DNA from: an uncultured Pelagibacteraceae bacterium
GTDB lineage: Bacteria; Pseudomonadota; Alphaproteobacteria; Pelagibacterales; Pelagibacteraceae
Length of the DNA: 64,000 nucleotides
Assembly: GCA_902615435.1 (NCBI GenBank)
Contig: CACMOZ010000001.1
Span: forward strand, 1-64,000
Direction: 5' to 3'
Part shown: piece after piece, positions 2,492 through 9,958 of the stretch
Layout: each line of letters begins with the position of its first letter
How positions within the stretch are numbered: the stretch's first letter is position 1
Notes under the pieces: model-generated
The model's input: the letters and a program-made list of their open reading frames with translations, nothing else
The model's database searches: none
Told to the model about the DNA's origin: nothing
Program-made: the position numbers and the translations under genes

Positions 2492-3624
2492 TGAAAAAGA
2501 AAATTGCAATAATTGGCGCTGGTATAGCAGGACTATCTTTAGCAAATTTAATTAAAAAATATACAGACCACGAATTTATGGTTTATGAAAGAGAAGAAAG
2601 CTTGTCTCTTGAAGAAGGCTACGGTATTCAATTAGCAACTAATAGTATAAAAATTTTAAATCAAATAAGTTTTGATAAAATTGACAACAAAAAAATTTTT
2701 CAACCAAAAACTATAGATTTTTACAATTTACAAAATGAAAAAATATGTGATTTAAATTTATCTAAGTTTAATAGCCCTGAAGCAAAATACACAACGTTAC
2801 AAAGATCTACTTTAATTGAATTTTTGAAAGAGGATATTTATACACAGCACATAAGATTTGGAAAAAAAATTAAAGAAGTTTCTGAACTTAAAGACAAAGT
2901 TCTTATCAAATTTAATGATAATACAAATGATCTAGTAGATTTCGTTGTAGCTGCTGATGGAATATTTTCAAACACCAGATCTTTTTTTGAAATGAAAAAA
3001 ATTGAACCAAGATTTAAAAAGGCTATTGCAGCAAGAGTGATATTAAACTCAAAATCTGAATTAGATATAAATGTAGAAAATATAAGTTTAATGCTTGGAA
3101 GCAACAGTCATATTGTCCTTTATCCAATAAATAAAAAAAAAGAACTTAATATGGTTTGTATAATGAGATGTAAAAAATATGAGCCTGATAATGTCAAACA
3201 GTTAGTTCAAGAAATAGTTTTAAAACAAAACCCAAAATTAAAAAATATATTTGAGAATGAAATAAAAACATGGCCTTTATATTTTACTCCAAAAATTATT
3301 CCTTCATCCAATAAAAAGGTATTTTATATTGGAGATGCCTTTAATGGTTTTTTGCCGACACTCGCACAAGGTGCTGGGCAGTCAATAGAAAGTGCTTTTG
3401 AAATATTTAATTTATTAAAAAATGATAAGCTTGATAAAGAAAATAATTATTTTGAAATTAGATCAAAAAGGGCAAGAATTATTAGAAGTAGATCAAATTT
3501 TAATTTCTATGTGTTTCATTTTTCAAGCAAAATTATGCAAAATATAAGAAATCTATTTTTGAAGCTTTTGGTAAAACGTAAATTTTTTGTTAAAACATAC
3601 TTAGGTAAAGTTTATAAGAATTAA
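2491..3624 (+). CDS. FAD-dependent monooxygenase (UbiH/aromatic hydroxylase family)
   Basis: A 377-residue flavoprotein of the PF01494 type. The N-terminal dinucleotide motif GAGIAG is at 9-14, and the second FAD motif, here GDAFNGFLPTLAQGAGQS, starts near 281. These enzymes hydroxylate aromatic rings with NAD(P)H and O2; ubiquinone ring hydroxylases (UbiH/UbiF/VisC) and salicylate hydroxylases belong here. The substrate is not readable from the sequence. It is translationally linked to mutY through a TAATG overlap and converges on ccrM, overlapping that gene's 3' end by 4 bases. Confidence 0.82.
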   Translation: MKKKIAIIGAGIAGLSLANLIKKYTDHEFMVYEREESLSLEEGYGIQLATNSIKILNQISFDKIDNKKIFQPKTIDFYNLQNEKICDLNLSKFNSPEAKYTTLQRSTLIEFLKEDIYTQHIRFGKKIKEVSELKDKVLIKFNDNTNDLVDFVVAADGIFSNTRSFFEMKKIEPRFKKAIAARVILNSKSELDINVENISLMLGSNSHIVLYPINKKKELNMVCIMRCKKYEPDNVKQLVQEIVLKQNPKLKNIFENEIKTWPLYFTPKIIPSSNKKVFYIGDAFNGFLPTLAQGAGQSIESAFEIFNLLKNDKLDKENNYFEIRSKRARIIRSRSNFNFYVFHFSSKIMQNIRNLFLKLLVKRKFFVKTYLGKVYKN

Positions 3625-4694
3625 ACTTTTGTTTCAGTAATGAATTTTTGCCGTAAACTATCAATTACAACAGTAGATCCATTTATATTACAATGCCAAT
3701 AAGTCCATCCATTATAGCTTTCAGCACCCATTATTCTTGCTGCCACTTTATGAATAGAACCTTCTGACTCTTTATATTTAATACTTCCGTCAGCCATAAT
3801 TTTAGCGTTAATTTTTTTTTTCGGATCAAATAGGGTAGTACCCGGCTTTAATATTCCTAGTTCAACAAGAGAACCAAAAGGTATTCTTGGTTTAGATTTA
3901 TTATTTTCAATAGTATCTAAATAATTATCCTCTATAGCTTTTGTTTTATTTACTCTTTCACTAGCAGCTTTAAAATACTTTTTATCTCTTTCTATACCAA
4001 AATATTTTCTACCTAATTTTTTAGCAACTACTGCTGTTGTTCCAGTTCCTAAAAAGGGATCAAAGATGGCATCACCTTTGTTTGTAGTAGCTAAAATAAT
4101 TCTATGTAAAAGAGCCTCTGGTTTTTGTGTAGAATGAATTTTTTTTCCGTTTTTCTTAAGTCTTTCTTTTCCGTTACAAATAGGCAATTTCCAGTCAGAT
4201 CTCATCTGTAAGTCATCATTTAAGCATTTCAATGATTGATAATTAAATGTGTATTTTGATTTCTTATTTTTTGAGGCCCAGATAAGAGTTTCATGTGCAT
4301 TAGTAAATCGTGTACCTCTAAAATTTGGCATAGGATTATTTTTTCTCCAAATAACATCATTTAGTAGCCAGTAATCTAAATTCTGTAAGTGATAACCTAG
4401 ACGAAAAATATTATGATAGGATCCTATTACCCAAATACTTCCATTATCTTTTAGAATTCTTTTACACTCATTAAGCCAAGTAATGCAGAATTTATCGTAA
4501 TGTTTGAAACTACTAAATTGATCCCAATTATCATTTACACCATTCACTTTGCTTGCATCAGGGCGAGTTAATTTTTCACCAATTTGCATATTGTAAGGAG
4601 GATCAGCAAAAACTAAATCAAAAGACTTATCAGGAATTTTTTTTATTTCCTTTAAACAATCTCCATTAACGATTTGATCAGAAAATTTTAACAT
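3621..4694 (-). CDS. ccrM: Cell-cycle adenine DNA methyltransferase CcrM (GANTC)
   Basis: A 357-residue beta-class N6-adenine methyltransferase. The catalytic DPPY is at about 31-34 and the SAM-binding DPFLGTG at about 212-218, in the order (catalytic motif before SAM motif) typical of CcrM. The C-terminal RAMA-type domain (about 255-355, rich in GTTLFDPKKK and GWTYWHC segments) is present, so the protein is full length and matches the CcrM family of alphaproteobacteria, which methylates GANTC after replication. I take the ATG at 4694; a TTG at 4706 is the only longer option. The 77-base gap upstream contains three GANTC sites (separate entry), which suggests self-regulation. Confidence 0.95.
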   Translation of the reverse strand: MLKFSDQIVNGDCLKEIKKIPDKSFDLVFADPPYNMQIGEKLTRPDASKVNGVNDNWDQFSSFKHYDKFCITWLNECKRILKDNGSIWVIGSYHNIFRLGYHLQNLDYWLLNDVIWRKNNPMPNFRGTRFTNAHETLIWASKNKKSKYTFNYQSLKCLNDDLQMRSDWKLPICNGKERLKKNGKKIHSTQKPEALLHRIILATTNKGDAIFDPFLGTGTTAVVAKKLGRKYFGIERDKKYFKAASERVNKTKAIEDNYLDTIENNKSKPRIPFGSLVELGILKPGTTLFDPKKKINAKIMADGSIKYKESEGSIHKVAARIMGAESYNGWTYWHCNINGSTVVIDSLRQKFITETKV

Positions 4695-4771
4695 TTTTAG
4701 ATTCAACTCTAAATTGAATCCAGGGTCAAACGTTTTTGATGAAAAAATAAGTCTTCTTGTGTTTTAGATTC
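4695..4771 (-). promoter_or_regulatory. ccrM upstream region with three GANTC sites
   Basis: The whole gap between the rnhB stop and the ccrM ATG contains GANTC at 4700-4704, 4716-4720 and 4767-4771. The first two sit in a perfect inverted repeat, GATTCAA (4700-4706) and TTGAATC (4714-4720), with a 7-base spacer. On the minus strand a TTGACC -35-like hexamer precedes the pair, with a weak -10 overlapping the start-proximal GANTC. By analogy with Caulobacter, where GANTC sites in the ccrM promoter make it methylation-sensitive, this is a candidate autoregulatory region; the function here is inference. Confidence 0.5.
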
Positions 4772-5344
4772 TTAGTTAGACAATATCTTGTGTACGGGTT
4801 TAAAACCTTTTCGATGATGAGCGGTAATACCAAATTTTTTTAAACCTTCTAAATGAGCCTTAGTTCCATAACCAAAATTACTTTCCCAAGCATAGTCTGA
4901 AAATTCTTCTGAAAGTTTAATCATGAGGTTATCTCTATAAACTTTTGCAATAATTGAAGCCGCGCTTATCACTTTTATTTTTTCATCACCATTAACAATT
5001 GTTTTGTAATTTTTTAATCCACTTGGTGCAAAATTTCCATCTATCAATGTCAAATCTGGTTTAACAGTTAGTTGTTCTAAGGCTCTTTTCATCGATAACA
5101 ATGAAGCTTGCAGAATATTTAAATTTAAAATTTCATCTACGGTTGCTAAACCTATGGCATAAAAAGAATGAGATTTTATATGATCAGAAATTTCTTGTCT
5201 TTTTTTAAAATTAATTTTTTTGGAGTCTTTAAGAAGGTCCAGATTAATTCCCTTTTTTAGTATTACAGCTGCAGAAACTACTGGACCTGCAAGACATCCT
5301 CTACCAACTTCGTCAATTCCAGCAGTAATAATTTTTTTTTTCAA
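4772..5344 (-). CDS. rnhB: Ribonuclease HII
   Basis: A 190-residue enzyme that nicks RNA-DNA hybrids and misincorporated ribonucleotides. The acidic active-site residues are all visible: D11 and E12 in GIDEVGRG, D102 in LIDGN, and D138 in AKVYRD. The length is normal for RNase HII. The start is a TTG at 5344, 5 bases after the stop of the uracil-DNA glycosylase; no ATG fits because the conserved domain begins almost at once. It sits in a minus-strand DNA-repair set (glycosylase, RNase HII, CcrM). Confidence 0.94.
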   Translation of the reverse strand: MKKKIITAGIDEVGRGCLAGPVVSAAVILKKGINLDLLKDSKKINFKKRQEISDHIKSHSFYAIGLATVDEILNLNILQASLLSMKRALEQLTVKPDLTLIDGNFAPSGLKNYKTIVNGDEKIKVISAASIIAKVYRDNLMIKLSEEFSDYAWESNFGYGTKAHLEGLKKFGITAHHRKGFKPVHKILSN

Positions 5345-8698: not shown

Positions 8699-9958
8699 AT
8701 GTTTGATATAAGTTTCAACTTTATTGATAAAATTATAAAAAACTTTTTTCCATTTTATAAAAATAAAAAATTAAAATTTGTTTTTAATAAACTTCAGGAA
8801 GGTTATTCATCAGACACAGTAACTGCAAGATTTGTTGGAGGTTGTGTCAGAAAATATCTGACTAACAACAAAATCGATGATATCGATATTGCAACAATTT
8901 TAAGTGCTAAAGAGATTAAAGAAAGATTTAAAAATACAAACTTTAAAGTCATTGAAACCGGCATTGAACACGGAACAGTAACTCTTATTTGTGAAAATTT
9001 AAGACTTGAAATAACAACTCTAAGAAAAGATGTTGAAACAGATGGCAGACATGCTGAAGTAGAATACATCAATGATTGGCAACTTGATTCAGAAAGAAGA
9101 GATTTTACCATAAACGCTATTTACCTCGATATTGACGGAAACATATTTGATCCTCAAATGGGAATGATTGACTTAAAAAATAATAATGTAAAGTTTATTG
9201 GTGATCCTCAAAAAAGAATTGAAGAAGATTACTTACGCATCATTCGCTTTATTCGATTTAAAATTATGTATGACGGCAAAGTTGAAACAACAACAAATAA
9301 TGCAATTAAACAAAATTTAGATGGTATTAAAAAAATTTCTAAAGAAAGAATTTTAATTGAATTATTTAAAATTTTAGATTTAAAAAATTTTATTAATTTA
9401 AATGAACGTGTTTATATAAAGGAAATTTTTACCCTTATTTTTCCAGAATTTTATATTAAGCGGATAGATCGATTAGCGAAAATTTATGATCATTTACAAA
9501 TTAATCGTGAACTTTTATTAACTATTTTACTTATCGATGAAAAAAATAATCATGAATATTTTGCACATAAGTATAATGTTTCTAATAATATAAAAGACCA
9601 ACTAAATTTATTTTCTAAAAACTTTAAACATTTCAAAGAAAATAAAAATTTTTTTAATAAAGATCTTGAAAAGAATATTTATTTAAATGATAAAAATCAT
9701 ATAATTAACTTAAATATTCTTAATTTTATAACAAATACAAAACTTAAATATAAAGATTTTTCTGAGACTTTAAGTAAAATACTTAATTCTAAAATTCATA
9801 GCTTTCCCTATGATGGAAAATATTTGAAGGAAAATGGTATGGAACAAGGTTCATTAATTGGCCAAGCCTTAAATGAAATCGAGGAGGAATGGATATTAAA
9901 TAATTTTAAGATAAGTAATGAAAGAGTCAAAGAAATTATTCGATCGTATTCAAATTAA
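8699..9958 (+). CDS. cca: CCA tRNA nucleotidyltransferase / poly(A) polymerase family
   Basis: A 419-residue class II nucleotidyltransferase that adds or repairs the 3' CCA of tRNAs. The nucleotidyltransferase head begins with FVGGCVR at about 45-51, then the DxD metal site D61/D63, and the RRDFTINA motif near 137, followed by the helical neck and body (ERI..EL at about 215-225). The ATG at 8699 is the only ATG in the N-terminal region. It begins 5 bases after the encoded CCA of tRNA-Gln, so no Shine-Dalgarno sequence exists outside the tRNA; the two must share a transcript unless a promoter lies within the tRNA. It converges on greA with a 4-base overlap. Confidence 0.92.
   Translation: MFDISFNFIDKIIKNFFPFYKNKKLKFVFNKLQEGYSSDTVTARFVGGCVRKYLTNNKIDDIDIATILSAKEIKERFKNTNFKVIETGIEHGTVTLICENLRLEITTLRKDVETDGRHAEVEYINDWQLDSERRDFTINAIYLDIDGNIFDPQMGMIDLKNNNVKFIGDPQKRIEEDYLRIIRFIRFKIMYDGKVETTTNNAIKQNLDGIKKISKERILIELFKILDLKNFINLNERVYIKEIFTLIFPEFYIKRIDRLAKIYDHLQINRELLLTILLIDEKNNHEYFAHKYNVSNNIKDQLNLFSKNFKHFKENKNFFNKDLEKNIYLNDKNHIINLNILNFITNTKLKYKDFSETLSKILNSKIHSFPYDGKYLKENGMEQGSLIGQALNEIEEEWILNNFKISNERVKEIIRSYSN

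Follow-up and report, generated by a model that had tools for sequence, protein, structure and literature searches.

GANTC sites in the presumed core promoter of ccrM in Pelagibacteraceae and their counterparts in other Alphaproteobacteria

The ccrM locus

The window, by which we mean the whole stretch of 64,000 nucleotides analysed here, comes from an uncultured Pelagibacteraceae bacterium and carries on its minus strand rnhB followed by a gene for an orphan adenine methyltransferase (Table 1). A preliminary description had named this gene ccrM, and the domains of its product bear this out: an N6_N4_Mtase domain (Pfam PF01555, 2.5e-67) is joined to a C-terminal RAMA domain (PF18755, 3.2e-14), and the protein matches the structure of Caulobacter CcrM, 6pbd, over almost its full length (E 1.1e-137, residues 3-349). 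With 572 bits the product did not reach the cut-off of the NCBIfam CcrM equivalog model (830 bits), a model that may be narrow, its name ending in Caul. Judged by its sequence the gene is ccrM, and its product is predicted to methylate GANTC.

Table 1. Features of the rnhB–ccrM region of the window
Feature	Position	Strand	Basis or remarks
rnhB (RNase HII), upstream neighbour of ccrM	4772..5344	-	PF01351, 2.9e-37
rnhB–ccrM gap, 77 bp, presumed ccrM promoter/leader region	4695..4771	-	
Distal GANTC, directly after rnhB stop	4767..4771	-	GANTC there in 77/109 loci (duplicates included)
Degenerate further site GACTT	4749..4753	-	GACTC in many of the relatives listed
TTGACC, -35-like element	4724..4729	-	TTGAC invariant in 101/101 unique upstreams; -35 assignment putative
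GANTC site 1 (GATTC in gene orientation), 3 nt past TTGACC	4716..4720	-	Intact in 90/101
Dyad GATTCAATTTAGAGTTGAATC (GATTCAA/TTGAATC, perfect inverted repeat)	4700..4720	-	
TTGAAT, candidate -10, 17 nt past TTGACC, overlaps site 2	4701..4706	-	Invariant in 101/101; putative, other registers possible
GANTC site 2 (GAATC in gene orientation), 5 nt before ATG	4700..4704	-	Intact in 92/101
ccrM, orphan GANTC adenine methyltransferase, 357 aa (N6_N4_Mtase + RAMA)	3621..4694	-	Pfam, structure match

The gap is bordered by the stop codon of rnhB (4772-4774) and the ATG of ccrM (4692-4694). Read in gene orientation, it begins with GAATC and runs up to the start codon as TTTGACCCTG-GATTC-AATTTAGAGTT-GAATC-TAAAA-ATG. 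The three GANTC sites reported earlier were found again at the positions given in Table 1, and the two nearest the start do form a perfect inverted repeat. There is no TTAA in the 77-bp gap, hence no CtrA box (TTAA-N7-TTAA or a half site), so that one feature of the Caulobacter-type ccrM promoter, two GANTC sites, is found in the presumed promoter region and the other, the CtrA box, is absent from it. The candidate -10 of the window's genus, TTGAAT at 17 nt, is without the usual A at position 2, and the -10 of this genus is uncertain. From its distance to the ATG (4692-4706 in the window) one would predict that the ccrM mRNA of the window's relatives has little or no leader.

Density of GANTC in the genome

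The preliminary description had assumed one GANTC per 350-400 bases, which proved too dense. A sample of 464,536 bases (about 45% of the assembly) contained 736 sites, one per 631 bp, with one per 656 in coding sequence and one per 473 outside it, the split resting on a rough ORF call with ATG starts only. The Poisson expectation for 77 bp is 0.12-0.16 sites and the probability of at least three is 0.0003-0.0006, so the local excess claimed earlier stands on this count, but three GANTC within 80 bp occur eight times in the sample. At least three sites were found in 7 of 239 gaps overall and in 2 of the 184 gaps of up to 150 bp. Because of these other clusters the excess alone is unconvincing, and we regard density by itself as moderate evidence; it is the comparison between genomes that convinces.

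Within the window itself GANTC is scarcer than expected, 101 sites being found where dinucleotide shuffles gave 173. Other clusters of three within 80 bp were seen in gaps of the same genome at L155:4112-4180, L157:10594-10662 and L170:9655-9678. The sites of the L157 cluster are spaced 34 and 34 bp apart; the L170 cluster has a small cysteine-rich ORF (9207-9596, minus strand) downstream of it and, on its upstream side, an ORF that by eye resembles a glycosyltransferase.

Conservation among close relatives

The close-relative set was assembled from 110 ccrM loci (one, L014, could not be anchored), 18 further upstream stretches and L221 from a sister genus, giving 128 loci with 101 unique upstream sequences. 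The coded genomes in this set belong to the window's genus, L221 excepted; 80 named records carry no genus code. In 108 of the 109 loci, duplicates counted, ccrM is closely preceded by a C-terminal motif of rnhB.

It had been proposed to look for the sites in relatives, and they are kept in most of the 101 upstream sequences: sites 1 and 2 are both intact in 83, and neither is in two (L012 and L037). The absence from relatives that the preliminary description had named as a refutation is therefore not what we observed. The core ATTCAATTT-N3-GTTGAAT is present in all 101 if one variant base is allowed in L146, and in 99 of them GTTGAAT ends 6 or 7 nt before the ATG. Within 115 bp, the 101 upstream sequences hold four GANTC in 38 cases, three in 33, two in 24 and one in 6; the would-be fourth site of the window is degenerate. 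We also considered GTTGAAT as a general element of translation starts, but with 3 of 431 genes having it, ccrM itself among them, where 0.5 would be expected, the signal was weak and the idea was dropped.

A quick tree was drawn from the 84 ccrM genes that were long enough. Each of the two sites is lost in eight tips and needs eight changes, so no loss is shared. Outside the tree, L146 and L147 are alike and both without site 1, and may have one loss in common. Counted by column over the 84 genes, both halves of the core, ATTCAATTT and GTTGAAT, show no change at all, the bases that complete GANTC show 8, and columns -2 and +20, which flank the sites, show 20 each; nearby A/T columns (-18, -11, +21, +23 and +24) show just 4-9. 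In a genome of 29% G+C, the GANTC-completing G and C are kept at about 90%, which speaks for selection on the sites, if less than on the core. Since the core has 0 changes and the completing columns have 8, the element would appear to be constrained by something besides methylation, most simply by the promoter itself or by a bound protein. What is chiefly constrained may be a different binding site, or the promoter.

It is highly improbable that the cluster arose by chance and was kept, without function, by shared ancestry. The relatives are indeed correlated, and the eight clusters in 464.5 kb show that three sites can come together elsewhere; against this, no loss is shared among the 84 genes, the columns directly flanking the sites vary freely, and the same ingredients recur in fixed geometry across the class, as described below.

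The invariant core could also be the operator of a dimeric regulator, with ATTCAA-N7-TTGAAT binding a protein in the window's relatives and the GANTC sites at its edges tuning the binding or merely overlapping with it. This would fit the invariance of the core amid variable flanks in the 84 genes, its presence even in L012 and L037, where both GANTC sites are lost, and the single occurrence of the dyad, at ccrM, in 464.5 kb of the genome. However, it would be unusual for a regulator to have a single operator in 45% of a genome, the invariance of TTGAAT may reflect a role as -10, and the dyad is absent from other genera except that of L221, most of which keep GANTC and TTGAC. We consider an operator unlikely.

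The dyad was also examined as an RNA hairpin that would regulate translation from just before the ccrM start, in an mRNA starting further upstream, for example by read-through from rnhB. The 21-nt dyad folds at -5.9 kcal/mol with a z-score of -3.9 (-2.1 for a 49-nt stretch and -1.6 for the whole gap), and L037 has A-T in place of the outer G-C pair. On the other hand, the outer pair is broken in 9 of the 101 sequences, which lost site 1 alone; the invariant G of GTTGAAT pairs by G-U alone and yet is never A; L114 and L115 carry GAATC twice in direct orientation and can form no stem; and other lineages are without the dyad. A hairpin is thus very unlikely.

The arrangement upstream of ccrM in the order and class

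To see how far the arrangement extends, we drew 191 genomes of the class, 160 of which had CcrM-like matches. From the top of the E-value list 89 loci were taken (29 + 60; G167 was passed over), the window's own being excluded. Closer CcrM sequences are over-represented in this sample, and some of its genomes come from the same genus or family; L174 and L175 belong to the window's family. All loci but L239, which was too short, were anchored by tblastn, leaving 88.

The signature TTGAC-N1..6-GANTC-N3..7-GANTC was found in 33 of the 88 upstream regions and at least its first half in 48; 40 had no signature at all. The regions, of up to 295 bp, hold 3.5 GANTC on average, and ten hold none. Seven control palindromes of the same make-up gave 0 or 1 two-site and 0-3 one-site matches in the 88 regions, and on the opposite strand the signature was absent from all 88. 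A shuffle control was run on 83 regions with a different anchoring (some anchors were wrong and six loci were without one) and a looser second gap, N3-12 instead of N3-7; here 33 two-site and 46 one-site matches were observed, whereas the shuffles gave means of 0.03 (maximum 1) and 0.44 (maximum 2).

The common arrangement consists of TTGACN, a GANTC, and a second GANTC whose last C opens a -10-like CANNNT 17 nt on. Outside the Pelagibacterales there are 32 two-site cases, and in 29 the final C lies exactly 17 nt from TTGACN, although the pattern permitted a range of about ten; the other three measure 18, 18 and 15 nt. The first site floats, the gaps before and behind it compensating each other (2+6 in 15 cases, 4+4 in 8, 3+5 in 5 and 1+7 in 1). 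Counted from the final C, CANNNT has its A at position 2 in 31 of the 32 and its T at position 6 in 30. A sigma70 promoter would be expected to show this 17-nt register if its putative -10 began with the final base of a methylation target.

Within the order, a second family has TTGACC-N2-GANTC-N6-GANTC in 17 of 20 anchored loci (16 of 19 plus L222; L117 failed anchoring); its last C falls 17 nt from the -35-like hexamer, and CATATT takes the place of the -10. In another genus of the window's family two sites were found at all 13 loci; the final C lies at 18 nt, and TCTAAT (12 loci) or TCTACT (one) stands at 17 nt as -10. The two-site signature was absent from the further genera of this family represented by L175, L216, L218, L219 and L220, which have 0 or 1 site; L215 and L217 were not anchored.

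In the sequence sampled the signature is also rare away from ccrM. In each of two genomes chosen for carrying it, 200 kb around ccrM held the strict form once, at ccrM. The SAR11 sample has no strict form and two copies of a relaxed one, at ccrM and at L168:1612. The window does not fit the class-wide signature, its final C lying at 23 nt. We infer that its ccrM promoter may be a remodelled variant of the common arrangement, the ancestry of which is likewise presumed. The dyad noted in the preliminary description is a feature of the close relatives, with its core in 101 of 101 upstream sequences, but not part of the common arrangement of the class.

Two loci of a single genus, L176 and L179, have seven and eight GANTC within 150 bp upstream of ccrM.

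Relation to GcrA

GcrA is a sigma70 cofactor that prefers methylated GANTC. It is possible, though rather unlikely, that GcrA binds the spacer sites and activates ccrM, by a positive feedback or with GcrA setting the timing. Of the 101 genomes of the order that were searched, 78 had a match to the GcrA family, the window's own among them (G000:C20:2936-3370; 135.7 bits, over the Pfam cut-off, and 123 of 280 bits in NCBIfam GcrA, below it). A GANTC would lie between -35 and -10, provided that the candidate elements TTGACC and TTGAAT are the hexamers. Methylated promoters are reported to recruit GcrA, which stimulates open-complex formation there (PMC3667746, PMC7403470), and in Caulobacter those starts that have GANTC between -10 and -35 become active at 40-60 min (PMC4287350). 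The GcrA-type methylated sigma70 promoters, such as Caulobacter ctrA P1 and mipZ, have GANTC between or near -35 and -10 (PMC4287350), as the present one would on these assignments. Unlike these, the ccrM signature does not track the presence of GcrA: among the 88 class regions it occurs in 9 of 17 without a detectable GcrA and in 39 of 71 with one (Fisher P = 1), and a dependence on GcrA was dropped, with the reservation that a profile search can miss a divergent GcrA (in 2 of the 122 genomes matched, nothing exceeded the cut-off). According to a posterior-probability screen, likely GcrA targets are very few in Pelagibacter ubique (PMC7987155). The Pfam GcrA profile also exceeded its cut-off in the control genome of Sulfolobus acidocaldarius, and single matches need care.

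Three further ideas were dropped. An element shared with gcrA was suggested by GTTGAATT, which stands ahead of gcrA in L111-L113; it does not do so in the window's genome. An Agrobacterium-like cluster of GANTC at gcrA was not seen, as there are 0 sites in the 250 bp upstream of the gcrA match in that genome. Mutual exclusion of the signature and CtrA-box-like motifs was unsupported (3 of 47 versus 5 of 39, P = 0.46).

A presumed promoter that may respond to its own methylation

Similar arrangements recur in close relatives and in many other members of the Alphaproteobacteria, which suggests that CcrM helps to control its own gene. We lean towards the view that the gap is the ccrM promoter, a sigma70 core with CcrM targets built in, which would be damped by full methylation and released after the fork has passed. 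In the common form, TTGACN would be the -35, one GANTC would lie in the spacer, and the last base of the second would be the first base of the CANNNT. In the window's close relatives the spacing would have been remodelled, with site 2 placed 5-6 bp further downstream, where it forms the dyad with site 1 and covers the candidate -10. With both strands methylated, methyl-adenines would sit at the edge of the -10, or inside it in the window's relatives, and would weaken sigma70 binding or melting and keep ccrM low; passage of the fork would leave the promoter hemimethylated and raise ccrM, and the new CcrM would re-methylate the promoter and shut off its own gene. Promoter activity, direct sensitivity to methylation, its sign (repression by full methylation) and the leaderless or nearly leaderless mRNA are presumed here from sequence comparison.

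A parallel is offered by the gcrA promoter of Agrobacterium tumefaciens, which is GANTC-dense like the present one, with six sites, and less active under CcrM methylation; the damping is also reported in E. coli, without alphaproteobacterial regulators (PMC11514494). That promoter drives gcrA, whereas here the gene is ccrM. Because of this report, and because the signature is independent of a GcrA match, direct sensing by the polymerase is favoured over activation by GcrA, and repression by full methylation over activation. The sign of the response could be the opposite, by analogy with other promoters that CcrM methylation activates (PMC3973325). GANTC is methylated in Pelagibacter, with a gradient from ori to ter, and in one culture 3477 of 3482 sites were fully methylated (PMC9516812), which leaves little room for a hemimethylated state in that culture.

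More tentatively, and with less confidence than in the promoter itself, one may imagine an ancient ccrM promoter of the Alphaproteobacteria that reads methylation itself, the polymerase sensing the mark directly without GcrA or CtrA, and that SAR11 kept and rebuilt. If so, two CcrM targets would lie in a sigma70 core promoter, where the second would keep a fixed register with the -10, and would form a minimal negative-feedback clock tied to fork passage, retained by SAR11 while other regulators were lost.

Relation to known systems

The preliminary description had seen in the gap a feedback loop retained from a Caulobacter-like state. The conserved sites and their overlap with a -35-like and -10-like arrangement agree with this; the missing CtrA box and the wide occurrence of the two-site arrangement in the class do not. 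The ccrM promoter of Caulobacter crescentus has two GANTC sites, like that of the window, and its expression is raised when it is hemimethylated (PMC10073500), an effect described as 'most probably' direct (PMC3973325). In Caulobacter, ccrM is activated by CtrA (PMC10073500), whereas the SAR11 gap has instead the TTGAC -35-like element and no TTAA; a ctrA ortholog was not found in Pelagibacter in a 2010 study (PMC2877005).

Several of these points are already in print: the probable autoregulation of Caulobacter ccrM (PMC3973325, PMC10073500, PMC8865702), and the under-representation and intergenic bias of GANTC together with the CcrM of SAR11 (PMC3973325). The comparative study of 2010 counted GANTC upstream of cell-cycle genes and, in its passages on these counts, drew no conclusion on control (PMC2877005). 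For the 17-nt register of GANTC and -10 at ccrM we found no description in the open-licence literature searched, mostly by passages, and priority is not established. The register bears on how the level of CcrM may be timed where CtrA, or its box at ccrM, is missing. Recurring across the class, this fixed register provides a precise and testable rule for how a core promoter could read a DNA mark. It also suggests that a lineage which is among the most streamlined of free-living ones has kept the register and rebuilt it.

Second, shorter CcrM-like methyltransferases were seen in four genomes (G133:C30, G184:C2, G270:C8 and G178:C50), in frames of 264-284 aa with 42-47% identity, each beside a longer CcrM match in the same genome.
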